A stretch of 64,000 bases of DNA from Thermomonas sp. (lineage in GTDB: Bacteria > Pseudomonadota > Gammaproteobacteria > Xanthomonadales > Xanthomonadaceae), in NCBI RefSeq assembly GCF_029945965.1, contig NZ_JAQSDO010000015.1, positions 718,921 through 782,920 of the forward strand, read 5' to 3'. Below are positions 478 through 12,735 of this stretch, piece after piece. The translations under genes and the position numbers were made by a program. Position 1 is the stretch's first letter. Each line of letters begins with the position of its first letter. Under the pieces are notes generated by a model that worked only from the letters and a program-made list of their open reading frames with translations, ran no database searches and was not told the DNA's origin.

Positions 478-1884
478 CTAGATAGCTGACCTACCAGCTC
501 TGACCTGCTCGAAAGCCCTGAGTGCATCCAACCGACTTGCGGCCAGATCCACGATGGGTACCCGCGGATAGCCTCCGACGCCATTGCTTGAGAGCCATGG
601 CGCATGACGATCAATAGCGGCGAGGCCTGCAAGTTCGGGAATCCAATGTGCGATGTAATCGCCATCCGGGTCGAACCGTTGTGATTGCAGGACCGGATTG
701 AACACCCGGATGTACGGCGCTGCATCGACGCCGGTTCCCGCGACCCATTGCCAGCCCAAGGTGTTATTGGCCAGGTCTGCATCGACCAATGTGTCCCAGA
801 ACCATGCTGCACCGTGTTGCCAGTGGGCGCGCAGGTTCTTGGTCAGGAAGCTGGCCACGATCATCCGCACCCGGTTGTGCATCCAGCCGGTTTCCCACAG
901 CTCGCGCATGCCGGCATCGACGATTGGAATTCCAGTACGCCCTTGCCGCCACGCATCCAGTTTCGCTTCAGGCACATCGGCCCAGGGAAAGTCGTCGAAG
1001 TGATGGTTGAAGTTGCTCTCGGGCGTGTCAGGGAAGTGATGCAGGACGTGGTGGGCGAAGTCACGCCAACCAAGTTGGCGCAGGTAGATGCTGCCGGCTT
1101 CCGGAAGTTGCTGGATGCTGCGGGAAACCTGCCAAGGTGAAATTTCGCCGAAATGCAGATGCGGCGACAGGCGTGAGGTGCCAGCCTGGCCCGGGAAATC
1201 CCGCGTTAGGCCGTAATCAGCCAGCGCCTGTTCGATGAACATGGATAGTGATCCCTGTGCACCCACCTCGCCCGGCGTCCACTGCATCCAGAACCTCTGA
1301 TCCCAATGCAGGCTGGGCGCAAGCTCCAGGTCGCCGACGGATAACCCGCCTGCGAGAGGCGTGACTCCTGGTAACCGTACAGGAGCGGCCATGGGCACTG
1401 GCAGCCGGAGTTGCCCCAGTGCAGTGCGCCAGAACGGCGTGAAAACGCGGTACGGATCGCCCTGCTTGTTCTCTACCTGCCATGGTTCGAACAGCAGGCT
1501 GTCGTTGAAACTCTCGACACGCAGTCCGGTGCTACGCAAGGCGCGCTTGATGCCGGCGTCGCGTTGCTCGATGGCGGGTTCATAGCGCCGATTCCAGAAA
1601 ACGGCTTCGGCATTGCAGTCGGCAGCTGCGCGCTGCAAAGATTCGAGACTCGGGCCCCGCATGATATTGAGGCGCGAACCACGCTCGCGCAGTGATGCAT
1701 CCAGTGCCAGCAATGAACGACGGCGCCATGCATTCGAGGCAGCACCTGGTGGCCATGCACCCTCCTCCCCTGGCGCATGGATATACAACGGAATTGGATC
1801 GAAACCCTGACGTAGCGCAGCCTGCAAGGCAGGCTGGTCGTTGAGTCTCAGGTCGTTGCGGAACCAGACGATGGCATTCGGCAC
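478..1884 (-). CDS. phrB: Deoxyribodipyrimidine photolyase (cryptochrome/photolyase family)
   Basis: Light-driven repair of cyclobutane pyrimidine dimers in DNA. The protein is 468 aa, close to the 470-480 aa of class I photolyases. The N-terminal antenna-binding alpha/beta domain starts with WFRNDLRLND (7-16). The FAD domain shows TSRLSPHLHFGEIS (about 245-258), WMHNRVRM (344-351) and DADLANNTLGWQW (378-390), including the tryptophans expected for electron transfer. The start ATG is immediately before the antenna domain. It lies 21 bases downstream of the lipoprotein hydrolase on the same strand and probably shares its promoter at 2812-2839. This would place it in the ECF sigma regulon of the neighbouring cluster. 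Confidence 0.95.
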   Translation of the reverse strand: MPNAIVWFRNDLRLNDQPALQAALRQGFDPIPLYIHAPGEEGAWPPGAASNAWRRRSLLALDASLRERGSRLNIMRGPSLESLQRAAADCNAEAVFWNRRYEPAIEQRDAGIKRALRSTGLRVESFNDSLLFEPWQVENKQGDPYRVFTPFWRTALGQLRLPVPMAAPVRLPGVTPLAGGLSVGDLELAPSLHWDQRFWMQWTPGEVGAQGSLSMFIEQALADYGLTRDFPGQAGTSRLSPHLHFGEISPWQVSRSIQQLPEAGSIYLRQLGWRDFAHHVLHHFPDTPESNFNHHFDDFPWADVPEAKLDAWRQGRTGIPIVDAGMRELWETGWMHNRVRMIVASFLTKNLRAHWQHGAAWFWDTLVDADLANNTLGWQWVAGTGVDAAPYIRVFNPVLQSQRFDPDGDYIAHWIPELAGLAAIDRHAPWLSSNGVGGYPRVPIVDLAASRLDALRAFEQVRAGRSAI

Positions 1885-1905: not shown

Positions 1906-2781
1906 TCAGTGGGTGGCGCGTACGCTTTGCGTAGTGTCGTCGCCCTTGATGAAAGCCAGCATGTCGGTAAGTACATCCGGCGCTCGCCTCGGATCATAAA
2001 GGCCCGCCAGCGGCGTGAGATGCCCGGCATCCGGCAGCAACTTCAATGTCGCGGGGACGCCATGGCTGCGCAGCTTTTCTGCAAGTTCCACGCTATCCAC
2101 ATATTCCACCACCCGGTCCCCGGTTCCATGCAGCAGCAGGAAAGGCGGTTCGTTGCCATCGACGAAGTTGACCGCCTGCGCACGTGGCCATAGCGATGGC
2201 GGCCCGAACACATCCACCAGGTCGCCGGTGACGTTGAAGTCATAGGGCCCTGACAGGCCAATCACGCCCGCCAGCTGGCCTGGTTCCATGCCATGCGCAA
2301 GCAGGTAGCGCGGGTCGGTGGCCAACAATGCCGCGATCTGTGCGCCAGCCGAATGTCCGGCAATGAAGATACGGTTCGGGTCACCGCCCCACCCTGCGAC
2401 ATCGTCATGGACACGGCGCACCGCACGCGCCGCGTCATCCATGAAAGCCGGGAACATCGCCTTGGGATACGTCCTGTAGTCCGCCACAACAGCCAGAATA
2501 CCGTTGTCCGCGAGCCGCTCACCGACGAACTTGTATTGCGCGCGATTTCCGCGCTGCCACGAGCCCCCATAGAAGAACACCACCACCGGCGCCGGTTTTG
2601 CGGTCACCATCCGAGGCCTGTAGACGTCCATCGACAAGCCGATGTCGGGCGCGAAGGTCACCGTCAGGTCGGGTGGCGGAAGGCCGCGATTGACGAAGCG
2701 GAAGACCGTTGCTTCGCACCCCGACAGCCAAAGCGCCAGCATCGATACCGCAATGAACCTGATCAAGCCTGTTTGTTGCAA
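1906..2781 (-). CDS. Alpha/beta hydrolase lipoprotein (carboxylesterase-like)
   Basis: A 291 aa esterase-type hydrolase anchored as a lipoprotein. The signal peptide ends in LSGC, with Cys22 as the lipidation site. The oxyanion-hole motif YGGSW is at 71-75, the nucleophile elbow GHSAG has Ser144, and Asp222 and His254 complete a catalytic triad. It resembles the carboxylesterase/kynurenine-formamidase-like branch with an HGG-type motif. The start is TTG at 2781, supported by a strong AGGAGG 5 bases upstream; no better ATG precedes the signal peptide. It is first in a two-gene unit with phrB, and a promoter-like GCATCC-N16-CGTATC lies just upstream. The substrate is unknown; membrane lipid is a guess from context. 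Confidence 0.85.
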   Translation of the reverse strand: MQQTGLIRFIAVSMLALWLSGCEATVFRFVNRGLPPPDLTVTFAPDIGLSMDVYRPRMVTAKPAPVVVFFYGGSWQRGNRAQYKFVGERLADNGILAVVADYRTYPKAMFPAFMDDAARAVRRVHDDVAGWGGDPNRIFIAGHSAGAQIAALLATDPRYLLAHGMEPGQLAGVIGLSGPYDFNVTGDLVDVFGPPSLWPRAQAVNFVDGNEPPFLLLHGTGDRVVEYVDSVELAEKLRSHGVPATLKLLPDAGHLTPLAGLYDPRRAPDVLTDMLAFIKGDDTTQSVRATH

Positions 2782-2811: not shown

Positions 2812-2839
2812 GATACGGATCAATCGAGGGTGCGGATGC
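2812..2839 (-). promoter_or_regulatory. Candidate ECF sigma promoter for the hydrolase-phrB unit
   Basis: On the minus strand GCATCC (2839-2834) is followed by 16 bases and CGTATC (2817-2812). The same hexamer, the same spacing and the same CGTA core occur at 2874-2901 and 5267-5294. The expected transcription start is about 25 bases before the TTG start. A -35 with CATCC resembles the CCATCC reported for SigK-type ECF factors paired with RskA anti-sigma factors. Confidence 0.6.
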
Positions 2840-2873
2840 ATAGTGAACAGCTGACGCTGCCAGCACCGTGCTT

Positions 2874-2901
2874 GCATCCGAACGCGTAAAAGCCGCGTAT
2901 A
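2874..2901 (+). promoter_or_regulatory. Candidate ECF sigma promoter for the exported protein-sigma operon
   Basis: GCATCC at 2874-2879, 16 bases, then CGTATA at 2896-2901. It is back to back with the minus-strand copy, with 34 bases between the two -35 elements, so the divergent region would drive both arms of the regulon. If so, the sigma factor gene at 3899 would be autoregulated through read-through from here; I found no good copy between 3738 and 3898. Confidence 0.6.
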
Positions 2902-2942: not shown

Positions 2943-3737
2943 ATGCCTTACTCGCATATCCAACGCGCGCATCTCACATTCGGCGGCCTGCTGCTTGCAC
3001 TGGTGTCATTGCCTGCTTCGGGCCAAACGGCTACGACAAACGAAGGCACGGCTTACAGGCTGGAGGATGGTACGGCTATATATCGTGAAACCCACATGCT
3101 GTACGAGATAGGCGGCAAACCAGCAAGACTGGTTCTGTACCGCTGCATGGATGGGTCGGCTTTTGCACGGAAGATCGTGGTGGAGCGCACTGGTGCCGCA
3201 ACACCGGACTTCGACTTCATTGACGGGCGTACCGGCTACCGTGAAGGCGTGCGTACCAGTGCCGACGATCGCGACGTCTATTGGCAGAAGTCGAGCTCGA
3301 CTGCAGAGAAAAGGAAGACGCTGGAAATCCCCGCGAACGCCATCATCGATTCTGGCTTCGATGCGATGGTCCGCGCTCAATGGCCGCTTCTTTCGACCGA
3401 AGGTGGCATCAGCGCGAAATTCCTGCTGCCCAGCGCATTGCGCTTCCTCAAGGTCAGCATCGAGCGAGTGAAGCTGAAGCCAGTGGTTGGAGTTACCCAT
3501 CTGCGAATGAAGCTGAATACCTGGTACGGCTTTGCTGCGCCCGATACCGACCTCGACTATCGCAGCAGCGATCGACGCCTGCTGCGCTTCAAGGGCATCG
3601 GCAGTATCCATGATGCACGCGGGCGCAACCAGGCCGTGCGCATCGAATTCCCGGGTGGTCTGCAGGGCCAACGCGCCAGTGCAGGCGATATCGAAACCGT
3701 GCGCAGCTTGCCCCTGATCGGCCAATGCGGGACATAA
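2943..3737 (+). CDS. Exported protein of unknown function, first gene of the ECF cluster
   Basis: A 264 aa protein with a signal peptide (hydrophobic LTFGGLLLALVSLPASG, likely cut after ASG near residue 27). The mature part is mixed alpha/beta with many charged residues, only three cysteines over its length and no motif I recognise. Phrases such as ETHMLYEIGGKPARLVLYRC and YWQKSSS suggest an ordered periplasmic domain. The start ATG at 2943 has only a weak ribosome-binding site. It is preceded by the ECF-type promoter at 2874-2901 and followed by the sigma gene 161 bases later. It may be a stress sensor or an envelope-repair protein; this is inference from position only. Confidence 0.7.
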   Translation: MPYSHIQRAHLTFGGLLLALVSLPASGQTATTNEGTAYRLEDGTAIYRETHMLYEIGGKPARLVLYRCMDGSAFARKIVVERTGAATPDFDFIDGRTGYREGVRTSADDRDVYWQKSSSTAEKRKTLEIPANAIIDSGFDAMVRAQWPLLSTEGGISAKFLLPSALRFLKVSIERVKLKPVVGVTHLRMKLNTWYGFAAPDTDLDYRSSDRRLLRFKGIGSIHDARGRNQAVRIEFPGGLQGQRASAGDIETVRSLPLIGQCGT

Positions 3738-3898: not shown

Positions 3899-4474
3899 AT
3901 GACCGCTTCAACGTTGCTTGATCGGGATGAGCAGGCCATACAGGTGGATGCTTGGCTGAGCGCTGCCGGTCGCGGCGACCAGCGTGCATTCGATTCGCTC
4001 TACCAGGCCACCTCCAGCATGTTGCTTGGCGTCTGCATGCGCGTGCTGGGTGATCGCAGCGAGGCCGAAGACGTGCTGCAAGAGGTTTACGTCACCGTGT
4101 GGCGCAAGGCGGTCCAGTTCGACAGCGCCCGTGCCCGCGCCAGCACCTGGATGGGTACGATCGCGCGCAATCGCTGCATCGACCGCCTGCGCAGCCAGCC
4201 GGCTTCGGCGCTGCGCGCCCCCATTGAAGTACTTGATTTTGCGGAAGATCCCTCCCCTAGTCCGGTTGCGCATGCCGAATCCGGCATGGAGCGCGCGCAA
4301 TTGGACGACTGCATTGAGCAACTGGAGCCCAAGCGCAAGGTCCTGATCCGCACGGCGTTCTTCGAAGGTGCCACGTACGAGGAACTCTCGGCCCGTTCGG
4401 GTTCGCCGCTCGGCTCGGTGAAGAGCTGGATCCGCCGCGGCCTGCTGCAACTTCGCGCGTGCCTTGAATCATGA
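3899..4474 (+). CDS. RNA polymerase ECF-type sigma factor (SigK-like)
   Basis: A 191 aa sigma factor with the two ECF domains. Region 2 is at about 29-97, including EDVLQEVYVTVWRKA and STWMGTIARNRCIDRLR. Region 4 is at about 133-188, with the helix-turn-helix TYEELSARSGSPLGSVKSW. An upstream in-frame ATG at 3725 would add 58 residues without sigma character; ATG 3899 has GAGGGG just upstream and gives the normal family length, so it is chosen. The stop overlaps the anti-sigma start by 4 bases (ATGA), pointing to translational coupling. Pairing with an RskA-type anti-sigma factor points to the SigK group. It probably reads the GCATCC-N16-CGTA motifs nearby. Confidence 0.92.
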   Translation: MTASTLLDRDEQAIQVDAWLSAAGRGDQRAFDSLYQATSSMLLGVCMRVLGDRSEAEDVLQEVYVTVWRKAVQFDSARARASTWMGTIARNRCIDRLRSQPASALRAPIEVLDFAEDPSPSPVAHAESGMERAQLDDCIEQLEPKRKVLIRTAFFEGATYEELSARSGSPLGSVKSWIRRGLLQLRACLES

Positions 4475-5259
4475 GTTCGCCCATCGACCGCATCGAAGAC
4501 GACAACGACCTGCCGCCCAGCGATGACTTGCGCGCAGGCGAGTACGTGCTTGGCGTGCTGGATGCGCAATCGCGCGTGCAGGCGCAAGCCAGGATAGCCT
4601 CAGACCACAGCTTTGCCGCCTTGGTTGCGCAGTGGGAGGATCGCTTCTCCGCATGGATGACCCGCGCCGAGCCGGTCGCGCCATCAGCCCATGTCTGGCC
4701 CCGGATCCGCAGTGAACTGGGCTGGAACGCGGTTGCCAGCAGCCCGACGGGTCTCTGGAACAGCGTCGGATTCTGGCGTGGCGCCACCGCTCTTGCGGCA
4801 GCGGCAAGCGTGGCCGCGATCGTCTTCGGCCTGCGCGGCGCTGCGCCGGTACCCCTGCCACCGCAGGTCGTGGTCCAGCTGCCAACACCACAAGTTCCGC
4901 CACAAACCGAAGAAGCGGTTGCTCGTCCGGTCACGGTTCTTGCCACGGATGACGGCGCCACAGGCTGGATCGCCAGGATCGATGCCAGCGGCGGCAAGGT
5001 CCTGATGGTGCCGGTGCCCAGGCCTGCAGATCCCAGTGGCAAAGTCGACGAGCTTTGGGTCATCCCCGCGGGCCAGGCACCCATATCGCTGGGCTTCGTC
5101 TCCAACGAAAAGGCGCACAGCATCGACGTGCCCGCTTCGGTGCGTACAGCCCTGATTGCAGGCTCCACCTTGGCAGTGACCCTGGAAGCGCAGGAAGGCA
5201 TGCCACATTCCGCGCCTGCCGGTCCGATCGTCGCCAAGGGCGCCATCGTCACGATCTGA
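4471..5259 (+). CDS. RskA-type membrane anti-sigma factor
   Basis: A 262 aa single-pass membrane protein. The N-terminal cytoplasmic sigma-binding part contains AGEYVLGVLD (22-31). One transmembrane helix spans about 103-122 (ATALAAAASVAAIVFGLRG). The C-terminal periplasmic RskA/anti-sigma-K domain contains VDELWVIPAG and AVTLEAQEG. It lacks the zinc-binding HxxxCxxC motif of ChrR/RsrA, so it is not a ZAS anti-sigma factor even though the gene neighbourhood resembles ChrR regulons. By family knowledge it would hold the sigma factor at the membrane until regulated proteolysis. It is translationally coupled to the sigma gene. Confidence 0.9.
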   Translation: MSSPIDRIEDDNDLPPSDDLRAGEYVLGVLDAQSRVQAQARIASDHSFAALVAQWEDRFSAWMTRAEPVAPSAHVWPRIRSELGWNAVASSPTGLWNSVGFWRGATALAAAASVAAIVFGLRGAAPVPLPPQVVVQLPTPQVPPQTEEAVARPVTVLATDDGATGWIARIDASGGKVLMVPVPRPADPSGKVDELWVIPAGQAPISLGFVSNEKAHSIDVPASVRTALIAGSTLAVTLEAQEGMPHSAPAGPIVAKGAIVTI

Positions 5260-5266
5260 TCCAGGT

Positions 5267-5294
5267 GCATCCGAGCAAGGCTGGTGACCGTACA
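5267..5294 (+). promoter_or_regulatory. Candidate ECF sigma promoter in front of the desaturase
   Basis: GCATCC at 5267-5272, 16 bases, CGTACA at 5289-5294, inside the 55-base gap between the anti-sigma gene and the desaturase gene. Start of transcription is expected near 5301. This would give the lipid genes an internal promoter, separate from the sigma/anti-sigma pair. Confidence 0.6.
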
Positions 5295-5314
5295 TACCGC
5301 ATCACCCTTGCAGG

Positions 5315-6322
5315 ATGCACCAGATGCTGGATCCCGGCGAAAGCCCGAGCCTTGCCAACTCCGGGCAAGGCGATACCGTCCATGAAGGCCAGCGGCCACG
5401 GACAGGCTTGGCGGCATCCACTCGTCGCTGGTTCGATACGCAGGCCAATGATGCTGCCAGCGCCAATATCGACGAGTACCGCATCGACTGGTTGCGCGCC
5501 GTGCCTTTCATCGCGATGCACCTGGCTTGCATCGCAGTCCTGTGGGTTGGCGTGTCGTCGGTTGCGCTTTGGGTAGCAGCCGCACTGTACGCAGTGCGGA
5601 TGTTCGCGCTTACCGGCTTTTATCACCGATATTTCTCGCACAAGACCTTTCGAACGTCCCGCGCGGTCCAATTCCTGTTTGCGCTTGTCGGCGCTGCATG
5701 CGTGCAGCGCGGGCCGCTGTGGTGGGCGGCGCACCATCGCAATCACCATCGCCATGCCGATACCGCGCTGGATCCGCACTCCCCCGGCCTGCGTGGATTC
5801 CTGTGGAGCCATGCCGGCTGGTTCCTGACCCCGCATGCATTCCGCACCGACTGGTCACGCATTCCCGATCTGGCCAAATACCCCGAACTGCGTTGGCTTG
5901 ACCGCTACGACACGCTAGTGCCGGTGGTGCTTGCCGCATTGCTTTACGGGCTTGGCGTCTTGCTGGAACACACCCAGCCGCAGTTGGGAACCAGTGGCGG
6001 ACAGATGCTGGTCTGGGGCTTCTTCGTTTCGACCATCGTGCTGTTCCACGCGACCGTGACCATCAATTCATTCGCGCATCGCTTTGGCAAGCGGCGTTTC
6101 GACACCAGGGACGACAGCCGCAACAACGTCTGGCTGGCGCTCATCACTTTTGGCGAAGGCTGGCACAACAACCACCATTTCTTCCCCGGCACGGTGCGCC
6201 AGGGCTTCCGCTGGTGGGAAGTGGATGTCACCTGGTACGTGCTGCGACTGATGGCGATGTTCGGGCTGGTACGTGACCTCAAGCCGATCCCGGCGTGGGT
6301 CACGGCAAAGGTGCGAGGCTGA
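5315..6322 (+). CDS. Acyl-CoA/fatty-acid desaturase (membrane di-iron, delta-9 type)
   Basis: Introduces a double bond into fatty acyl chains at the membrane using a di-iron centre. The 335 aa protein carries the three histidine boxes of the family: HRYFSH (104-109), HHRNHH (140-145) and HNNHH (284-288). Hydrophobic segments lie at about 63-100, 118-130 and 203-250. The first 50 residues are polar and poorly conserved in appearance. ATG 5315 is chosen, but ATG 5324 has a better-placed AGG upstream and is equally possible. It is the first lipid gene of the cluster and could supply the unsaturated chains that the two downstream methyltransferases modify. Confidence 0.88.
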   Translation: MHQMLDPGESPSLANSGQGDTVHEGQRPRTGLAASTRRWFDTQANDAASANIDEYRIDWLRAVPFIAMHLACIAVLWVGVSSVALWVAAALYAVRMFALTGFYHRYFSHKTFRTSRAVQFLFALVGAACVQRGPLWWAAHHRNHHRHADTALDPHSPGLRGFLWSHAGWFLTPHAFRTDWSRIPDLAKYPELRWLDRYDTLVPVVLAALLYGLGVLLEHTQPQLGTSGGQMLVWGFFVSTIVLFHATVTINSFAHRFGKRRFDTRDDSRNNVWLALITFGEGWHNNHHFFPGTVRQGFRWWEVDVTWYVLRLMAMFGLVRDLKPIPAWVTAKVRG

Positions 6323-6323
6323 C

Positions 6324-7634
6324 ATGCGTATCGCCGTCATTGGTTCAGGCATCTCCGGCCTGGCATCGGCATGGTTGCTCTCGCGCAGGCACGAGGTCGT
6401 GCTGTTCGAGGCCGGCGACTATCTCGGCGGGCATACGCATACCCACGACATCGAGTTAGATGGCCAGCATTTCCGCGTGGACACCGGGTTCATCGTGCAC
6501 AGCCCAGCGCACTACCCGCTGCTGACAGGCATGTTCAATGAGCTAGGCGTGCGCATGAAGCCGACCACGATGAGTTTCTCCGTGCATGGCGACCCCGAGA
6601 AAGGACGCGATCCACTGGAATACAACGCCACCTCGCTGGATGGGCTGTTCTGCCAGCGTCGCAACCTGGTTTCGCCGCGTTTCTGGGGCATGTTGCGCGA
6701 CCTGCGCCGTTTCTACCGGATCGCTCCGGCCCTGCTCGAAGGCGATGGCCCCGGTCCGGCATTGGGCGACTACCTTGATGCCAATGGCTTCGGCGCGATG
6801 TTCCGCGACCATCACCTGGTGCCGATGGCCTCCGCACTATGGTCATCGCCATCAGCGCAGATCCTGTCATTCCCGGCGCGTTACCTGGTGCAGTTCATGG
6901 ACAACCACCACATGTTGCAGGTCAGCGGACGCCCGCCATGGCGCGTGGTGGAAGGTGGCTCGGCAGGCTATGTCAAGGCGATGGTGGCGGACTGGCGTGT
7001 AAATGTGCGCCTGAGAACCGCTGTGACTGGCGTGCGCCGCGACGCCGAGAGTGTAGAAATCGAGACCACAGACCGCAGGGAGCGTTTCGACCAGGTCGTG
7101 ATGGCCTGCCACAGTGACCAGGCGTTGCGCCTGCTGGCCGATGCAGGACAAGCCGAAACAGAGATCCTAGGCGCCATACCCTACCAGGATAACGACGTCG
7201 TGCTGCACACCGACACGCATCTGCTTCCGCGCAATCGCAGGGCATGGGCGGCGTGGAATGTACACATCCCGTCGAATCCTGCCGATGCCTGCACCGTCAG
7301 CTACTGCATGAATTTGTTGCAGGGCATCGACGCACCTAAACCATTGATCGTGACCTTGAACCGCACCGATGCGATTGATCCTGCGAAGGTGCTGCGCCGG
7401 ATGCAGTACCAGCATCCGGTCTATACCCAGGCTTCAGTGGCGGCGCAATCGCGCAAAGCGGAAATCCAGGGCCGGCGCAATACCTGGTTCGCCGGCGCCT
7501 ATTGGGGTTGGGGTTTCCATGAGGACGGCATGCGCAGTGCAGTCGACGTTGCCCGCGCGCTTGGCGTTGCATGGGAACCTGTCCCTTCGTCATCGCCAGC
7601 TGCTTCGTTCGATCCGGAGCTGGTGCCGGCATGA
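6324..7634 (+). CDS. FAD-dependent oxidoreductase (amine-oxidase/COG2907 type)
   Basis: A 436 aa flavoprotein. The N-terminal Rossmann motif is GSGISGLASAWLL (7-19), followed by the FAD ribose-binding Glu in VVLFEAGDYLGGHTHTH. A second conserved segment, VVEGGSAGYVKAMV, lies near 210, and the C-terminal flavin motif region has NTWFAGAYWGWGFHEDG. The family sits beside DUF1365 and CFA-synthase genes in many bacteria. ATG 6324 is 1 base after the desaturase stop; the frame is open upstream, but that part overlaps the desaturase. It may oxidise or rearrange the methylated acyl chain, as the flavin or oxygenase step in furan fatty acid synthesis does; this is inference. Confidence 0.85.
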   Translation: MRIAVIGSGISGLASAWLLSRRHEVVLFEAGDYLGGHTHTHDIELDGQHFRVDTGFIVHSPAHYPLLTGMFNELGVRMKPTTMSFSVHGDPEKGRDPLEYNATSLDGLFCQRRNLVSPRFWGMLRDLRRFYRIAPALLEGDGPGPALGDYLDANGFGAMFRDHHLVPMASALWSSPSAQILSFPARYLVQFMDNHHMLQVSGRPPWRVVEGGSAGYVKAMVADWRVNVRLRTAVTGVRRDAESVEIETTDRRERFDQVVMACHSDQALRLLADAGQAETEILGAIPYQDNDVVLHTDTHLLPRNRRAWAAWNVHIPSNPADACTVSYCMNLLQGIDAPKPLIVTLNRTDAIDPAKVLRRMQYQHPVYTQASVAAQSRKAEIQGRRNTWFAGAYWGWGFHEDGMRSAVDVARALGVAWEPVPSSSPAASFDPELVPA

Positions 7635-8437
7635 GCGATGGCGGCGACCGGATGGCGATTCTGGCCAACTCTGGCTTGGCCAGTGCCGTCTATGAAGGCA
7701 CGGTGCGGCATCGTCGCCATTACCCACGGCCGCATGAATTCAGCTACCGCATGGCCCAGATATATCTCGACCTCGACGAGGTCGATACGCTCTTCGACAA
7801 ACGCTGGTTGTGGTCGTCAGGGAACCGCAACCTCGCCGAATTTCGCCGCGCGGATTACCTCGGCGCGACTGATGTCCCGCTTGCCGAAGCCGTGCGTGAT
7901 CGCATCCACGCCACCACCGGTTTGCGTCACGTTGGCCCGATCCGCCTGCTCACCCACCTGCGCTATGCCGGCTTCGTCTTCAATCCGGTCAGCTTCTACT
8001 ACTGCTACGCGCCGGACGGCCTGCGCCTGGAATATGTGGTCGCCGAGATCACCAACACACCGTGGAAGGAACGCCACGCCTATGTGCTGCCGATTGCCGA
8101 TGCGCAGCCGCATGGGCGCGCGTGGCATTGGGACTTCGCGAAGGCCTTCCACGTTTCGCCATTCATGGCGATGCAACGCGACTATCACTGGAGCTTCACT
8201 GCGCCAGGCAAGGATCTACATGTCCACATGGATGTCATGAACGCAGGCGAGCGTGAATTCGATGCCACCGTGTCCTTGCAACGCAGTCCGCTCGATGGCA
8301 AGTCGCTGGCCCGCGTGCTGTGGCGGTATCCACTGATGACCGCCCAGGTCGTCGGTGCCATCCACTGGCAGGCGCTGCGCCTGTGGCTCAAGCGCACTCC
8401 CGTACACGACCACCCCCGACACCACAGGGCCGACTGA
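7631..8437 (+). CDS. DUF1365 family protein
   Basis: A 268 aa protein of the DUF1365 (COG3496) family, recognised by YEGTVRHRRHYPRPHEFSY near the N-terminus, RLLTHLRYAGFVFNPVSFYYCY in the middle (given here as family hallmark text) and AFHVSPFMAMQRDYHW later. The biochemical role is unknown; in many genomes it lies between the COG2907 oxidoreductase and a CFA-type methyltransferase. The start ATG overlaps the stop of the oxidoreductase by 4 bases (ATGA). A second ATG at 7652 is possible. A lipid-related role is inferred from its constant neighbours. Confidence 0.88.
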   Translation: MSDGGDRMAILANSGLASAVYEGTVRHRRHYPRPHEFSYRMAQIYLDLDEVDTLFDKRWLWSSGNRNLAEFRRADYLGATDVPLAEAVRDRIHATTGLRHVGPIRLLTHLRYAGFVFNPVSFYYCYAPDGLRLEYVVAEITNTPWKERHAYVLPIADAQPHGRAWHWDFAKAFHVSPFMAMQRDYHWSFTAPGKDLHVHMDVMNAGEREFDATVSLQRSPLDGKSLARVLWRYPLMTAQVVGAIHWQALRLWLKRTPVHDHPRHHRAD

Positions 8438-9729
8438 TGAACCGATCCATTGAAGCGCTGCAACTTCCTGCCGACCGCTACGGCGCGCTCGACCGCATGC
8501 TGCGCAACCGCCTGCACGCCACGATGGCCGCGTTGCGTGGGCGCGGCCTGAGGGTGACCGATGCACTGGGTACACAGGAATTCGCTGGCAATGAGGCATC
8601 GCCTGAGATCATGATCGAGGTCCTGGACCCGGCGTTCTATCGTGCCGTCGCTGCAAATGGCAGCGTCGGTGCCGGTGAAGCATGGATGGATGGCCACTGG
8701 CGCTGCGATGATCTGGTCGGACTGATTCGCCTGTTGGTACAAAACCGCGCGCTGCTGGACGGCATGGAAACCGGCATGGCCCGCCTTGGTGGCATCGCGA
8801 TGCGTGGCTGGCATGCGCTGCGCAAGAACACCCGCGATGGAGCCCGACGCAATATCGCCGCGCATTATGACCTCGGCAACGAGTTCTTCGGTTTGTTCCT
8901 GTCCGACGACCTGATGTATTCCTCGGCGTTGTATGCAGGCGACGATGATGATCTGGAAACAGCATCCACACGCAAACTGGACCGCATCTGTCAGAAACTA
9001 CGATTGCAGCCCAGCGATCGCGTGATCGAGATCGGCACCGGCTGGGGCGGCTTCGCGGTGCATGCCGCGCGCCACTATGGTTGCCACGTCACCACGACCA
9101 CCATCTCGCGCGAGCAACATGCATTGGCCGCCTCGCGTGTCGCCGAAGCCGGCCTGCAGGATCGCGTGACCCTGCTGCTTGAGGATTACCGTGATTTGAA
9201 GGGTACCTACGACAAGCTGGTCTCGATCGAAATGATCGAGGCGATCGGTGCGCAGTACCTCGACACCTACTTCGGCAAACTTGCATCGCTGCTCAAGCCG
9301 GATGGCCTGGCGCTGGTGCAGGCGATCACCATTGAAGACCACCGCTACAAGCAGGCGCTGCATTCAGTCGACTTCATCAAGCGCTATGTGTTCCCCGGCT
9401 CGTTCATACCATCGATAGCAGTAATGCTCGATGCCAAGACCCGCAGCAGCGACCTGGCCCTGACCCATCTGGAGGACTTTGGGTCCTCGTATGCGTGCAC
9501 CTTGCATGCGTGGCGGCAGCGCTTCATGGCGCGCTTGCCGGAGGTGCGCGCACAGGGCTTCGACGAACGCTTCATCCGTATGTGGGAGTTCTACCTGGCT
9601 TATTGCGAAGGTGGGTTCATGGAGCGCTCGATCGGCGTGGCGCAATTGCTGATGGCCAAGCCCGGCAATCGCGATGCCGAATTCGTGTCCGGTCTCAATA
9701 CCAGCCGCAGCGACTGGATCACAGCCTGA
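8437..9729 (+). CDS. cfa: Cyclopropane-fatty-acyl-phospholipid synthase family methyltransferase (copy 1)
   Basis: A SAM-dependent enzyme that methylates or cyclopropanates double bonds in membrane phospholipid acyl chains. It has 430 aa. An N-terminal lipid-binding domain is followed by AAHYDLGNEFF (141-151), the SAM-binding motif IEIGTGWGG (197-205) and SIEMIEAIG, all typical of CFA synthase. The C-terminal part has FIKRYVFPGSFIPS and FYLAYCEGGF. The start overlaps the DUF1365 stop by one base (TGATG). This is the classical CFA-synthase branch, and the protein could also be the methylase of a furan or branched fatty acid pathway. Confidence 0.92.
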   Translation: MNRSIEALQLPADRYGALDRMLRNRLHATMAALRGRGLRVTDALGTQEFAGNEASPEIMIEVLDPAFYRAVAANGSVGAGEAWMDGHWRCDDLVGLIRLLVQNRALLDGMETGMARLGGIAMRGWHALRKNTRDGARRNIAAHYDLGNEFFGLFLSDDLMYSSALYAGDDDDLETASTRKLDRICQKLRLQPSDRVIEIGTGWGGFAVHAARHYGCHVTTTTISREQHALAASRVAEAGLQDRVTLLLEDYRDLKGTYDKLVSIEMIEAIGAQYLDTYFGKLASLLKPDGLALVQAITIEDHRYKQALHSVDFIKRYVFPGSFIPSIAVMLDAKTRSSDLALTHLEDFGSSYACTLHAWRQRFMARLPEVRAQGFDERFIRMWEFYLAYCEGGFMERSIGVAQLLMAKPGNRDAEFVSGLNTSRSDWITA

Positions 9730-9730
9730 C

Positions 9731-10279
9731 ATGCGCTTCTGGGCCAACCTCGTCGGCTATCAGCTGGTCTGGTTCGTGATCGTGATCAGTGCGTCGCGCG
9801 GGCAGCCATGGTTGGGAATTGCGGCGTCGCTGGTCTTCATCGTGCTGCAGACCTTCACCTCAACAACCCGCAAATCAGATATGCGCGCACTGCTCGCGAC
9901 TTTCATCTGCGGATTTCTGCTGGATGGCGCCTTGGTGGCCGTCGGCTGGTTGCACTACGCATCACCCTTGCTGTCCCTACCCGCACCGGTCTGGATCCTC
10001 GCGCTATGGATGGCGTTTGCGATGACGCTTAATCATTCGATGGCGTTCCTGCGCGGCAAGACCGTGATGGCGGCATTGCTGGGCGGGATCGGTGGGCCAC
10101 TGGCATATCTGGGCGCAGCGCGTGGTTTTAATGCCGTCATCTTCGTAGCACCTGCATGGCATGCCATCGCCCTGCTGGCCATCGGTTGGGCCATCGCATT
10201 GGCCGCGCTTGCGGTCCTCACCCAGCGCTGGGCTGTTGAAAGCACAGAATCCACATTGCAACCGGAGCATATGCAATGA
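9731..10279 (+). CDS. DUF2878 family integral membrane protein
   Basis: A 182 aa hydrophobic protein with five or six predicted membrane helices (for example LVGYQLVWFVIVISAS at the start and HAIALLAIGWAIALAALAVL near the end). The segment WMAFAMTLNHSMAFL is typical of DUF2878, a family often found in CFA-synthase operons of gammaproteobacteria. No catalytic motif is visible. ATG 9731 is 1 base after the previous stop; an in-frame ATG further upstream would lie inside the methyltransferase gene. Function unknown. Confidence 0.82.
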   Translation: MRFWANLVGYQLVWFVIVISASRGQPWLGIAASLVFIVLQTFTSTTRKSDMRALLATFICGFLLDGALVAVGWLHYASPLLSLPAPVWILALWMAFAMTLNHSMAFLRGKTVMAALLGGIGGPLAYLGAARGFNAVIFVAPAWHAIALLAIGWAIALAALAVLTQRWAVESTESTLQPEHMQ

Positions 10280-11109
10280 CGATTGGCCCGATGAGTGCAG
10301 GCATGAGTTTACTGGTGATCTGGCTACTGGCCGTAGCCGCCCAGACAGTTGGTTGGCTATGGCAGAAACGCCATCGCAATGCCGGCATGGTCGATGTGGT
10401 GTGGTCGGCAGGTGTTGGCGGAGCCGCCGTTGTTGCGGCGGTGCTGGGGGATGGCGCACTGCTCCCCCGCGTCCTGCTGGCAGTGCTGGGCGGCCTCTGG
10501 GGGCTGCGGCTTGCTGGCCACCTGCTGCATCGCGTGCTGGGCGAACCCGAAGACGGGCGTTACGCACACATGCGAAAGAGTTTTGGACAAGACCAACGCA
10601 AGTGGTTCGCGTTCTTTCAGTTCCAGGCCTTGCTGGTAGTGCTGTTCGCCCTGCCCTTCGTTGCGGTCGCCCGCAATCCAAAGCCGAGCGTCACCATGTG
10701 GATACTGGTTGGCGTCGCCTTCTGGTTGCTGAGCGTGTTCGGCGAAGCCGCGGCGGATCGGCAACTGGCTCGTTTCCGCGCCAACCCGGCGAACAAGGGG
10801 TACACCTGTCGGGATGGTCTCTGGCGCTATTCGCGTCACCCCAATTATTTTTTCGAGTGGCTGCACTGGTTTGCCTACGTCTGCCTGGCTGTTGGCTCGC
10901 CGCTTTGGTGGCTGGCCTGGGCCGGGCCGTTGGTGATGTTCGTGTTCCTGCGATGGGTCAGCGGCATCCCGTACACCGAAGCACAGGCCCTGCGCACGCG
11001 CGGCGATGACTACCGCGACTACCAGCAGACCACGCCCATGTTGTTCCCGTGGTTTCCCAAGACACCCGCCGAACCGTCATCAAAAAAACCTGTAAGGAAT
11101 GCGCCATGA
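10276..11109 (+). CDS. DUF1295 family membrane protein (steroid 5-alpha-reductase-like)
   Basis: A 277 aa polytopic membrane protein. The family is related to steroid 5-alpha-reductase C-terminal domains and isoprenylcysteine methyltransferases. Hallmarks are NAGMVDVVWSAGVG (36-49) and GLWRYSRHPNYFFEW near 180, where the His-Pro-Asn-Tyr core would bind a reduced nicotinamide or similar cofactor. It overlaps both neighbours by 4 bases (ATGA). An acyl-chain or enone reductase acting on modified lipids is a reasonable guess; the true substrate is unknown. Confidence 0.85.
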   Translation: MTIGPMSAGMSLLVIWLLAVAAQTVGWLWQKRHRNAGMVDVVWSAGVGGAAVVAAVLGDGALLPRVLLAVLGGLWGLRLAGHLLHRVLGEPEDGRYAHMRKSFGQDQRKWFAFFQFQALLVVLFALPFVAVARNPKPSVTMWILVGVAFWLLSVFGEAAADRQLARFRANPANKGYTCRDGLWRYSRHPNYFFEWLHWFAYVCLAVGSPLWWLAWAGPLVMFVFLRWVSGIPYTEAQALRTRGDDYRDYQQTTPMLFPWFPKTPAEPSSKKPVRNAP

Positions 11110-12185
11110 ATACCCTCGCCGAAACCCTGCAACTTGACAGTGACACCGCCGCGCCCGGCCTGCTTGGCTTGGCAGAACGCGGGCTGGTGCCGGATGCACT
11201 GTTGCGTGCTGGCATCCGCCGGATGTGCGCCCTGCGCTTGAATGAGGAATCGGCAGGCGGCCCGGAAGCGGTCAGTCAGCGCTTCCGGCAACAAATAAAG
11301 ATCCTGCGCGACAGCCCGGTCGCCATCCACACCGATGCCGCAAACCGCCAGCATTACGAGTTGCCGCCCGCGTTCTTCCAGCACTGCCTCGGGCCGCGCC
11401 TGAAGTATTCGTCTTGCTATTACCCGACCGGTAACGAGTCCCTCGCCGAGGCCGAAGAGGCCATGCTCAAGCTGTATGGCGAGCGCGCCGAACTCGCCGA
11501 CGGGCAGGACGTGTTGGAACTTGGCTGCGGCTGGGGTTCACTGACCTTGTGGATGGCGCAGCGCTATCCGAATTCGAATATAACCGCAGTGTCGAACTCA
11601 CGCCCGCAGCGCGAGTTCATCGAAGCACGCTGCCGCGAACGTGGGTTGGACAATGTGCGCATCGTCACCTGTGACGTCAACCAGCTTGAATTGCAGGCCG
11701 ACCAGTTCGACCGCTGCGTGTCGATCGAGATGTTCGAGCACATGCGCAACTACGAGACCTTGCTCAGGCGCATCAACCGATGGTTGCGCCCCGGTGGCGC
11801 GCTGTTCGTGCACATCTTCTGCCACAAGACCCTGCTCTACCCGTTCGAGACCGAGGGCGAGGACAACTGGATGGGTCACCACTTCTTCACGGGTGGCTTG
11901 ATGCCTTCGGCAGATACCTTGTTGTGGTTCCAGCAGCAGCTGCGCATCGAGCAACGATGGCTGGTCGATGGCCGCCACTACCAGCGAACCGCCGACCATT
12001 GGCTGGCCGAACAGGACAAGCATCGCGACGTGGTGATGCCGGTGTTGCGCGAAGCCTATGGCGATGCCGCAGGCCTGTGGTTCCATCGCTGGCGGATGTT
12101 CTGGATGGCCTGTGCAGAGTTGTTCGGCTACGACCAAGGCCGGGAATGGATGGTCAGCCACTACCGTTTCCGCAAGGAGCAATAA
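11106..12185 (+). CDS. CFA-synthase-like SAM methyltransferase (copy 2, coclaurine-N-methyltransferase-like branch)
   Basis: A 359 aa SAM-dependent methyltransferase. HYELPPAFFQ and KYSSCYY (about 83-106) precede the SAM motif LELGCGWGS (137-145), and SIEMFEHM follows. HYELP with KYSSCYY is the signature of the branch that contains plant coclaurine N-methyltransferases and bacterial relatives, unlike the HYDLGNEFF of the classical CFA synthase at 8437. The lineage is thus different from copy 1, so this is not a recent duplication. It overlaps the DUF1295 gene by 4 bases. The substrate is probably a fatty-acid derivative, inferred from context. Confidence 0.87.
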   Translation: MNTLAETLQLDSDTAAPGLLGLAERGLVPDALLRAGIRRMCALRLNEESAGGPEAVSQRFRQQIKILRDSPVAIHTDAANRQHYELPPAFFQHCLGPRLKYSSCYYPTGNESLAEAEEAMLKLYGERAELADGQDVLELGCGWGSLTLWMAQRYPNSNITAVSNSRPQREFIEARCRERGLDNVRIVTCDVNQLELQADQFDRCVSIEMFEHMRNYETLLRRINRWLRPGGALFVHIFCHKTLLYPFETEGEDNWMGHHFFTGGLMPSADTLLWFQQQLRIEQRWLVDGRHYQRTADHWLAEQDKHRDVVMPVLREAYGDAAGLWFHRWRMFWMACAELFGYDQGREWMVSHYRFRKEQ

Positions 12186-12186
12186 A

Positions 12187-12735
12187 ATGAAGAACACACA
12201 CATGCGCGTACTGGCTTCGATCGTGGCCCTCCTGTTTGGCGCAGGTTGCGCGCACACGCCACCAACGATTTCCCCGGTTGCGAACGTCGACCTGCAAAAA
12301 TTCATGGGCGACTGGTACGTGATCGCAAACATCCCGTCCTATCCCGAGCGTGAGGCCTACAACGCGGTGGAGTCCTACGTGCTGCAGCCGGACGGCCGCA
12401 TCGAGACGACGTTCCGTTTTCGCAAGGGCGGCTTCGATGCCCCAGTGAAAATCATGCATCCGGTCGGGCGCGTAGTCGCCGGCACCAACAACGCCGTCTG
12501 GGACATGCAGGTGTTCTGGCCCATCAAGGCCGAATACGTGATCGTGGGGCTCAACGACGATTATTCGCAGACCATCATCGGGCGCAGCAAGCGTGACTAC
12601 GCTTGGGTGATGGCGCGTACGCCGACCATCAGCGAACAGGATTACCAGGCGGCGCTGTCCAAGCTGAAGGTGCTGGGTTACTCGCTGGACAAGCTGCGCA
12701 AGGTCCCGCAGCAGTGGCCCGAAGCCGCGTCTTGA
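12187..12735 (+). CDS. blc: Outer-membrane lipocalin lipoprotein (Blc-like)
   Basis: A 182 aa lipoprotein of the bacterial lipocalin family, which bind and carry lipids or fatty acids at the envelope. The lipobox is in LFGAGCAH. The lipocalin GxW motif is KFMGDWYVIANIPS, and later conserved pieces are VFWPIKAEYVIVGL and YAWVMARTP. ATG 12187 follows the previous stop after one base. A position at the end of a lipid-modifying operon fits delivery or repair of membrane lipids. Confidence in the family is high; the ligand is unknown. Confidence 0.93.
   Translation: MKNTHMRVLASIVALLFGAGCAHTPPTISPVANVDLQKFMGDWYVIANIPSYPEREAYNAVESYVLQPDGRIETTFRFRKGGFDAPVKIMHPVGRVVAGTNNAVWDMQVFWPIKAEYVIVGLNDDYSQTIIGRSKRDYAWVMARTPTISEQDYQAALSKLKVLGYSLDKLRKVPQQWPEAAS

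Follow-up and report, generated by a model that had tools for sequence, protein, structure and literature searches.

An operon of Thermomonas sp. predicted to make furan fatty acids under a sigma factor held by an RskA-type anti-sigma factor

Described furan fatty acid systems

Furan fatty acids are membrane lipids thought to protect against light-driven oxidative damage. Here we analyzed a 64,000-nucleotide stretch of a Thermomonas sp. genome (assembly GCF_029945965.1, contig NZ_JAQSDO010000015.1, positions 718,921 to 782,920 of the forward strand; hereafter the window), in which genes for an extracytoplasmic function (ECF) sigma factor and an RskA-type anti-sigma factor precede an eight-gene operon. 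From comparison of the sequences with described systems, we consider it likely that the RskA-held sigma factor drives a photo-oxidative-stress regulon that includes this operon, and that the operon is one for furan fatty acids.

The accounts of published systems given here hold for the parts of each paper that were available. In the described pathway, UfaM, an S-adenosylmethionine (SAM) methylase, forms a methylated trans olefin, UfaD, an NAD/FAD-binding protein, yields a diene, and UfaO, a DUF1365 protein, forms the furan with O2 (PMC7380195, Lemke 2020). In Rhodopseudomonas palustris, RPA2571, RPA2570, and RPA2569 are UfaD, UfaO, and UfaM, respectively, and FufM (RPA0924), with RPA0923 as the adjacent tag, adds a second methyl group (PMC7380195). 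A UfaM of Halomonas gave a furan intermediate when expressed in Escherichia coli (PMC12089945). The Ufa systems of R. palustris and Rhodobacter sphaeroides share three enzyme families with the window operon, and that of R. palustris also shares the gene order. They differ in that a desaturase, a DUF2878 protein, and a lipocalin were not found alongside in the accounts available, in their control by ChrR and, for R. sphaeroides, in having ufaM elsewhere in the genome. FufM of R. palustris is encoded at a separate locus, whereas its counterpart here lies within the ufa-type operon.

The cluster most like that of the window in layout is Smlt2375-2367 of Stenotrophomonas maltophilia, which encodes a hypothetical protein, a desaturase, an FAD oxidoreductase, a second hypothetical protein, CfaS2, two membrane proteins, CfaS1, and a lipocalin (PMC11832516). 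It matches the window locus in gene kinds, gene order, and an adjacent sigma control, as judged by annotation and order and not by sequence, but its anti-sigma factor is ChrR (sigma-Ec/ChrR) and it has a divergent sigma unit. In the absence of ChrR these genes rose 165- to 697-fold in a sigma-dependent manner, in RNA sequencing done once, and their removal from the ChrR-lacking mutant almost reverted its menadione tolerance and ceftazidime susceptibility (PMC11832516). That paper presents the cluster as one for lipid modification; its main text contains neither "furan" nor "Ufa".

Three further systems share parts of the arrangement. The SigK/RskA-like pair of Rhodobacter capsulatus is induced by singlet oxygen (PMC7074977) and is an earlier example of the other kind of regulator in this response; homologues of RSP1090/1091 are missing there, whereas the window pair sits within a furan operon region. 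The ECF11 regulons of Pseudomonas syringae and Shewanella oneidensis (PMC5507510, PMC4336711) hold a cfa-containing operon and a photolyase behind a similar promoter, but with TGATCC instead of TGCATCC, with ChrR instead of RskA, and with no match to a desaturase or lipocalin in the passages searched. In Chlamydomonas, the singlet-oxygen-induced genes that require SAK1 include CFA1, CFA2 (alternatively CPLD27, a coclaurine N-methyltransferase), genes for DUF1365 and DUF1295 proteins, and the fasciclin-like FAS2 (PMC4067076). Among the literature matches listed, with most subscription journals outside the coverage, no publication gave the operon a furan role or described an RskA-controlled form.

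Enzymes of the furan core and of the second methylation

As the anchor genome we used R. palustris strain XCP; the strain of PMC7380195 is CGA009, and XCP loci were equated with CGA009 genes by order, number, and identity and not by locus tags. Loci outside the window carry handles such as L101. XCP has three methyltransferase genes above 100 bits, the same number as given in the available account of CGA009, and its locus L101 shows the order FAD-DUF1365-CFA1 that matches RPA2571-2569 (ufaD-ufaO-ufaM). The window FAD protein was 44% identical to the XCP ufaD-position protein over 440 positions, the window DUF1365 protein was 35% identical to the ufaO-position protein, and CFA1 was 41% identical to the ufaM-position protein compared with 34% to the third XCP methyltransferase. 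With the gene order also shared, these values uphold the kinship with the UfaD/UfaM/UfaO pathway proposed in the initial annotation. The same annotation had pointed to the FAD protein as a UfaO counterpart, which we rejected, since UfaD is the NAD/FAD-binding protein and UfaO the DUF1365 protein (PMC7380195). With the FAD protein of UfaD type, the membrane FA_desaturase is left without a counterpart among the characterized enzymes and is therefore an extra gene. Searches of solved structures with the DUF1365 and DUF1295 proteins returned nothing useful, and single-sequence structure predictions were not used (mean predicted local distance difference test scores of 39 and 55, respectively).

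The core genes were widely conserved together. A DUF1365 gene was present in 40 of 60 order-level genomes, the window's own included, and in 55 of 184 class-level genomes, 53 of which were new. The counts per locus, at score thresholds set in this analysis and with some contigs ending within the locus, were FAD 38, DUF1365 40, CFA1 40, CFA2 36, DUF1295 35, DUF2878 36, desaturase 35, and lipocalin 21 at the 40 order-level loci. The corresponding counts at the 53 class-level loci were 51, 53, 50, 12, 9, 17, 13, and 6. All three of FAD, DUF1365, and CFA1 were found at 38/40 order-level loci and at 49/53 of the further class-level loci with DUF1365, a togetherness that is more than chance. The core is this trio, and FufM, DUF1295, DUF2878, and the desaturase form an added layer that is common in this order. 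Two loci (L122 and L135) read DUF1365-CFA1-DUF2878-DUF1295-CFA2, with both FAD and desaturase missing there; at L122 the genes ahead of DUF1365 were read, and no replacement for either was seen at that locus. Split frames of the desaturase, of DUF1295, or of CFA1/DUF2878 occurred in L110, L112, and L123 and represent either frameshifts or assembly errors.

The second methyltransferase could be assigned in the same way. CFA2 was 48% identical to the fufM-position protein of XCP (L099) and 31 and 27% identical to the other two XCP methyltransferases, and the window DUF1295 protein was 38% identical to that of L099. At L099 the DUF1295 and CFA2 genes overlap by 4 bases, as expected of RPA0923-RPA0924 (fufM). 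The DUF1295 gene precedes the CFA2-type gene in L099, L102, and L104, and DUF1295 genes neighbor fufM-type genes in R. palustris XCP, Rhodopseudomonas pentothenatexigens, and Bradyrhizobium BTAi1. In a tree of 53 chosen methyltransferase rows, CFA2, FufM, and the plant coclaurine N-methyltransferase (CNMT) made up one of two large groups (support 100/100), with FufM nested among the CFA2 rows (88/85 and 95/96). The best solved relative of CFA2 was likewise coclaurine N-methyltransferase, at 265 bits compared with 102 bits for E. coli Cfa, and FufM is 38% identical to the CNMT-like plant protein AT4G33110 (PMC10940516). CFA2 is thus most likely of FufM type, by sequence comparison, and would form the dimethyl furan; the DUF1295 protein is likely its NAD(P)H reductase partner. 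The reductase-like protein that the initial annotation had listed as an extra, and the second methyltransferase with it, match the known FufM and its neighbor by the comparison with XCP.

Regulators, the promoter-like motif, and the layout of the locus

The initial annotation had named an RskA rather than a ChrR anti-sigma factor, and our searches agreed: RskA_C matched at the locus with 62.8 bits, and the ChrR search gave no match anywhere in the window genome. Pairs of the SigK/RskA type typically release their sigma factor by proteolysis of the anti-sigma factor. Nineteen order-level loci had an adjacent sigma gene, 14 with a ChrR-type and 5 with an RskA-type anti-sigma factor, and NCBIfam TIGR02451 confirmed ChrR in 8/8 proteins scanned, 3 of them from the 14 loci. 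At the five RskA loci (window, L108, L109, L110, and L118) the sigma pair lies between a gene of the 2943-3737 type (Table 1) and the desaturase gene. The sigma factors fell into two separate clades (100/99); that of the RskA loci joined Mycobacterium tuberculosis SigK, on a long branch, and the sigma factors of the ChrR loci joined R. sphaeroides RpoE. RskA was present in 5/5 RskA genomes and in 0/14 ChrR genomes, two of the latter being less than 90% complete, and ChrR was found in 0/5 RskA genomes and in 4/4 of the ChrR genomes searched (2 over the cut-off, 2 as pieces under it). Both kinds of regulator occur inside the window's own genus.

In a quick tree of FAD, DUF1365, and CFA1, scored with L138 and L145 as loci without a regulator, the RskA label required five changes, at least three of which were forced by well-supported branches. 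(At L145 the sigma factor of the ChrR pair scores lower, and at L138 a piece of ChrR is present where the contig ends.) Shuffled labels required a mean of 4.8 changes; the tree therefore describes scatter and does not count events. Whole operons moving together with their regulators could imitate regulator replacement at a resident operon, and the quick tree and its scattered RskA label would fit such transfers. We hold transfer to be possible rather than probable as the source of the pattern, in that the sigma clades are deep, whereas operon proteins from the two kinds of locus are intermingled in a single genus.

A promoter-like motif links the two kinds of locus. The pattern TGCATCC-N(14,17)-CGTA matched three times in the window, each time with N16 and always at the operon locus, compared with 0.12 matches expected by chance and with 0/100 shuffles reaching three. 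Of the 19 order-level loci whose operon has a sigma gene above 200 bits next to it, 17 carried the motif ahead of the operon (exceptions, L107 and L121), as did 1 of the 21 others, two of which could not be scored. In total, the 40 order-level loci gave 50 matches compared with 0, 0, 3, and 0 for four control patterns; the motif was first noticed by eye upstream of 14 loci, whose counts are not independent of its discovery. The published promoter of sigma-E/ChrR is TGATCC-N16-CGTA in P. syringae (PMC5507510) and S. oneidensis (PMC4336711), and the TGATCC-N-CGTA form gave 4 matches in the same 40 loci compared with the 50 for the TGCATCC form. The second half and the spacing of the window motif agree with the published promoter, with TGCATCC replacing TGATCC. 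As photolyase and ufa-type genes do in ECF11 sigma-E/ChrR regulons, a photolyase/esterase unit and a ufa-type operon both lie downstream of the motif. One promoter-like motif thus appears to serve two unrelated kinds of sigma/anti-sigma pair in driving a single kind of operon.

The base before CGTA in the operon motif, read by eye, was C in 5/5 RskA-type loci (window, L108, L109, L110, and L118) and in only 2/12 ChrR-type operon motifs (Fisher p 0.003), and the other motifs of these RskA- and ChrR-type loci did not keep this rule. Four further matches in the window genome lay upstream of DUF4331-like, fasciclin-like, and cupredoxin-like lipoprotein genes, with one near a contig end; sites outside the window are L240 (6016, -), L241 (5422, -), and L242 (1326, +). 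The three proteins, the first two of which were named by eye and the third weakly supported by Pfam, are possible further members of the regulon. A fasciclin-like gene is common to these motif targets and to the SAK1-dependent set of Chlamydomonas, and about 5 kb from the fasciclin-like gene the window's genome encodes another lipocalin-like protein, named by eye (L241:249-794, +). A second lipocalin gene, distant from the operon and with a motif copy of its own, occurs in L113, L115, L123, L127, L129, L133, and L134, a link between the lipocalin and the regulon.

The features of the locus are listed in Table 1. All ten open reading frames that the initial annotation had placed at 3899-12735 (+) are present, intact, and co-directional, encoding the sigma factor, the anti-sigma factor, and the eight-gene operon, and Pfam and NCBIfam bore out its family names for all ten proteins. 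Its count of nine tightly packed genes after the anti-sigma gene held for the packing and not for the number, which is eight, and the junctions are 1- or 4-base overlaps or 1-base gaps. Overlaps of 4 bases occur at sigma/anti-sigma, FAD/DUF1365, DUF2878/DUF1295, and DUF1295/CFA2 and one of 1 base at DUF1365/CFA1; gaps of 1 base separate desaturase/FAD, CFA1/DUF2878, and CFA2/lipocalin. The 55 bases between the anti-sigma and desaturase genes contain the motif. The unit extends beyond these ten genes, as the conserved gene 2943-3737 and a divergent esterase/photolyase unit face copies of the same motif, with the copy at 2814-2840 (-) ending 32 bases ahead of the esterase start; the photolyase gene would be co-transcribed with the esterase gene. 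A counterpart of gene 2943-3737 lies ahead of the sigma pair in L108, L109, L110, and L118 and immediately ahead of the desaturase gene in L107, L111, L112, L114, L116, and L138. By its position, this gene is the probable counterpart of Smlt2375. A scan for sigma-70 promoters found 0 compared with 2.5 expected, and terminator-like sites were at chance level.

Table 1. Features of the Thermomonas sp. locus, in window coordinates
Feature	Position	Strand	Evidence
DNA photolyase, second gene of divergent unit	478..1884	-	Pfam DNA_photolyase, FAD_binding_7; motif 2814-2840 (-) points toward it
Esterase/alpha-beta hydrolase, first gene of divergent unit	1906..2781	-	Pfam BD-FAE, Abhydrolase_3
Promoter-like motif TGCATCC-N16-CGTA facing esterase and photolyase	2814..2840	-	
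Promoter-like motif TGCATCC-N16-CGTA ahead of gene 2943-3737 and sigma unit	2873..2899	+	
Conserved operon-associated gene	2943..3737	+	No Pfam family
ECF sigma factor, SigK clade	3899..4474	+	Pfam; sigma tree 100/99
RskA-type anti-sigma factor, one hydrophobic stretch	4471..5259	+	Pfam RskA_C 62.8 bits; hydropathy
Promoter-like motif TGCATCC-N16-CGTA ahead of eight-gene operon	5266..5292	+	
Membrane fatty acid desaturase, SCD-like (predicted role)	5315..6322	+	Pfam FA_desaturase
UfaD-type FAD oxidoreductase	6324..7634	+	Pfam FAD amine-oxidase type; 44% to XCP ufaD-position protein
UfaO-type DUF1365 protein	7631..8437	+	Pfam DUF1365 280 bits; 35% to XCP ufaO-position protein
UfaM-type SAM methyltransferase CFA1	8437..9729	+	Pfam CMAS; 41% to XCP ufaM-position protein; SEEQIY; clade 99/95
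DUF2878 membrane protein, putative accessory	9731..10279	+	Pfam; in 36/40 order-level loci
DUF1295 membrane protein, probable NAD(P)H reductase, fufM neighbor	10276..11109	+	Pfam DUF1295, Steroid_dh
FufM-type SAM methyltransferase CFA2	11106..12185	+	Pfam CMAS; 48% to XCP fufM-position protein
Lipocalin, Blc-like lipoprotein	12187..12735	+	Pfam Lipocalin_2

The predicted lipid and its alternatives

Because the operon encodes proteins of the UfaD, UfaO, and UfaM types, together with a CFA2 that is 48% identical to its FufM counterpart and a DUF1295 gene ahead of both, its most likely products, as far as sequence can tell, are (di)methyl furan fatty acids. In the mechanism that we propose, the membrane anti-sigma factor would hold the ECF sigma factor, whose release would lead to transcription of its own unit, the esterase and photolyase genes, and the eight-gene operon. 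Unsaturated acyl chains of phospholipids would then be turned into furan fatty acids: methylation of the cis double bond by CFA1 would be followed by introduction of a second double bond through the UfaD-type FAD enzyme, after which the UfaO-type DUF1365 protein would insert O2-derived oxygen and close the furan, and CFA2 would add the second ring methyl. The desaturase probably feeds unsaturated chains into this sequence, the DUF1295 protein would act alongside FufM, and DUF2878 and the lipocalin would, by position, be accessory. Computed here were the identity, order, and conservation of the genes, the shared motif, and the two alternative regulator pairs; the four enzyme steps come from the cited papers, in other species. 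From these we infer the lipid made by this organism, the use of the motif by the sigma factor, what the sigma pair senses, and the roles of the desaturase, DUF1295, DUF2878, and lipocalin.

The desaturase bears on which furan is made. It matched acyl-CoA desaturase 1 with 93 bits (SCD-like), and its profile had no match in the ufa loci of R. palustris or Bradyrhizobium. Presence of the desaturase for lack of FabA was not supported, as the window genome carries FabA (287 bits), along with a further desaturase-like protein, and among cluster-bearing genomes the desaturase was found in 20/22 whose FabA passed the cut-off and in 15/18 of the rest. At the 53 class-level loci, desaturase and FufM occurred together in 7, desaturase only in 6, FufM only in 5, and neither in 35 (Fisher p 0.005), a hint, given lineages that are not independent, that the desaturase is tied to FufM. 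As a side observation, the cluster is commoner where FabA is missing, possibly a lineage effect: FabA was over the cut-off in 22/40 cluster-bearing compared with 19/20 cluster-free order-level genomes (Fisher p 0.001; lineages not independent), with the FabA of G022 present as two adjacent pieces.

Since the operon brings its own desaturase, the product might be a furan beyond the described 9M5/9D5 pair, with another chain length, ring position, or further double bond. The presence of the desaturase in 35/40 order-level loci and the lack of a profile match in the R. palustris and Bradyrhizobium ufa loci point this way, although the window genome also has FabA and another desaturase-like protein. 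Against it, the enzyme may merely raise the supply of ordinary substrate, and the substrate positions are unreadable from sequence. We regard such a furan as a tentative prospect, which falls within the furan explanation and is not opposed to it. By the same extra desaturase, a lipid not previously described is possible. Oxidation of furan fatty acids is reported to give dioxoenes (PMC12595405), and it is a conjecture that the DUF1295 protein reduces them. We think it unlikely that the operon makes an undescribed dimethyl furan on a chain opened by the desaturase while DUF1295 reduces the ene-dione (dioxoene) left by an oxidant-opened ring; if true, the operon would encode a cycle of synthesis and repair and not synthesis alone, DUF1295 being a steroid-5-alpha-reductase-type protein.

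The trio might also make only the monomethyl furan, with CFA2 methylating another target such as an amine or another lipid. N-methyltransferases do occur within the CNMT family, and at class level the core is usually without CFA2 (12/53 loci), yet the identity of CFA2 to the R. palustris FufM-position protein, the shared DUF1295 neighbor, and its company with the core in 36/40 order-level loci make this improbable.

CFA1, in turn, was compared with cyclopropane synthases. At six E. coli Cfa sites (C139, G236, E239, H266, I268, and Y317), which we take to be the canonical signature, CGEHIY was read in six canonical rows: E. coli Cfa, the second enzyme of the genome itself (L001), the Rhodopseudomonas/Bradyrhizobium Cfa homologues L100, L103, and L105, and one protein in L188. 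SEEQIY was read in the window CFA1 and in each of the three UfaM-position proteins compared (L101, L106, and L146), and E and Q occupied sites 236 and 266 in 92/94 CFA1-type rows, some of them split or partial; the two exceptions were a fragment and L205, which retains H. In the 53-row tree, which carries a long-branch warning that includes the genome's own Cfa, CFA1 and UfaM formed a single clade (99/95) apart from Cfa. The cyclopropane product that the initial annotation had allowed for is thus unlikely from CFA1, which lacks the canonical signature in a genome whose separate enzyme L001 has it, and as the principal explanation it was rejected on these two grounds. That both methyltransferases make cyclopropane fatty acids, the other genes tuning the membrane under oxidative stress, is highly improbable: both belong to Pfam CMAS, and the available account of S. 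maltophilia uses the name CFA synthase for each counterpart and speculates that the membrane is modified (PMC11832516), but CFA1 has the UfaM pattern, CFA2 scores far higher with CNMT than with Cfa, and cyclopropane synthesis needs no FAD/DUF1365 partners, yet the trio occurs together in 38/40 and 49/53 loci.

Several observations weigh against the furan regulon that we favor. The window CFA1 lies in a branch sister to the known UfaM proteins inside their shared clade, the separate Cfa of the window genome falls next to that clade as a long branch with weak support (90/77), and the UfaO-type identity is just 35%. Genome-wide, the motif matched 7 times compared with 4 for a reversed control, so any single match is weak evidence; its first part differs from the published promoter, and no motif was found at two further ChrR-bearing loci, L138 and L145. 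In the available account of S. maltophilia, the ChrR circuit had no effect on singlet-oxygen tolerance and altered menadione tolerance and ceftazidime susceptibility (PMC11832516). Finally, the remaining three genes of the R. sphaeroides operon, RSP1087-1089, were dispensable for furan formation in the account available (PMC7380195), and by analogy the extra genes of the window operon may also be dispensable for it.

On the favored reading of an RskA-held sigma factor and a furan operon, one transcription unit would join the genes for mono- and dimethyl furans, which R. palustris has at separate loci, and two candidate enzymes of the pathway would be named, DUF1295 through its pairing with FufM and the desaturase as an added gene. 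A chemical identity is thereby proposed for the sigma-controlled lipid-modification cluster of S. maltophilia, which affects sensitivity to stress and to drugs. The two kinds of regulator would amount to a natural experiment, in which sensing by different anti-sigma factors may be compared on one output.

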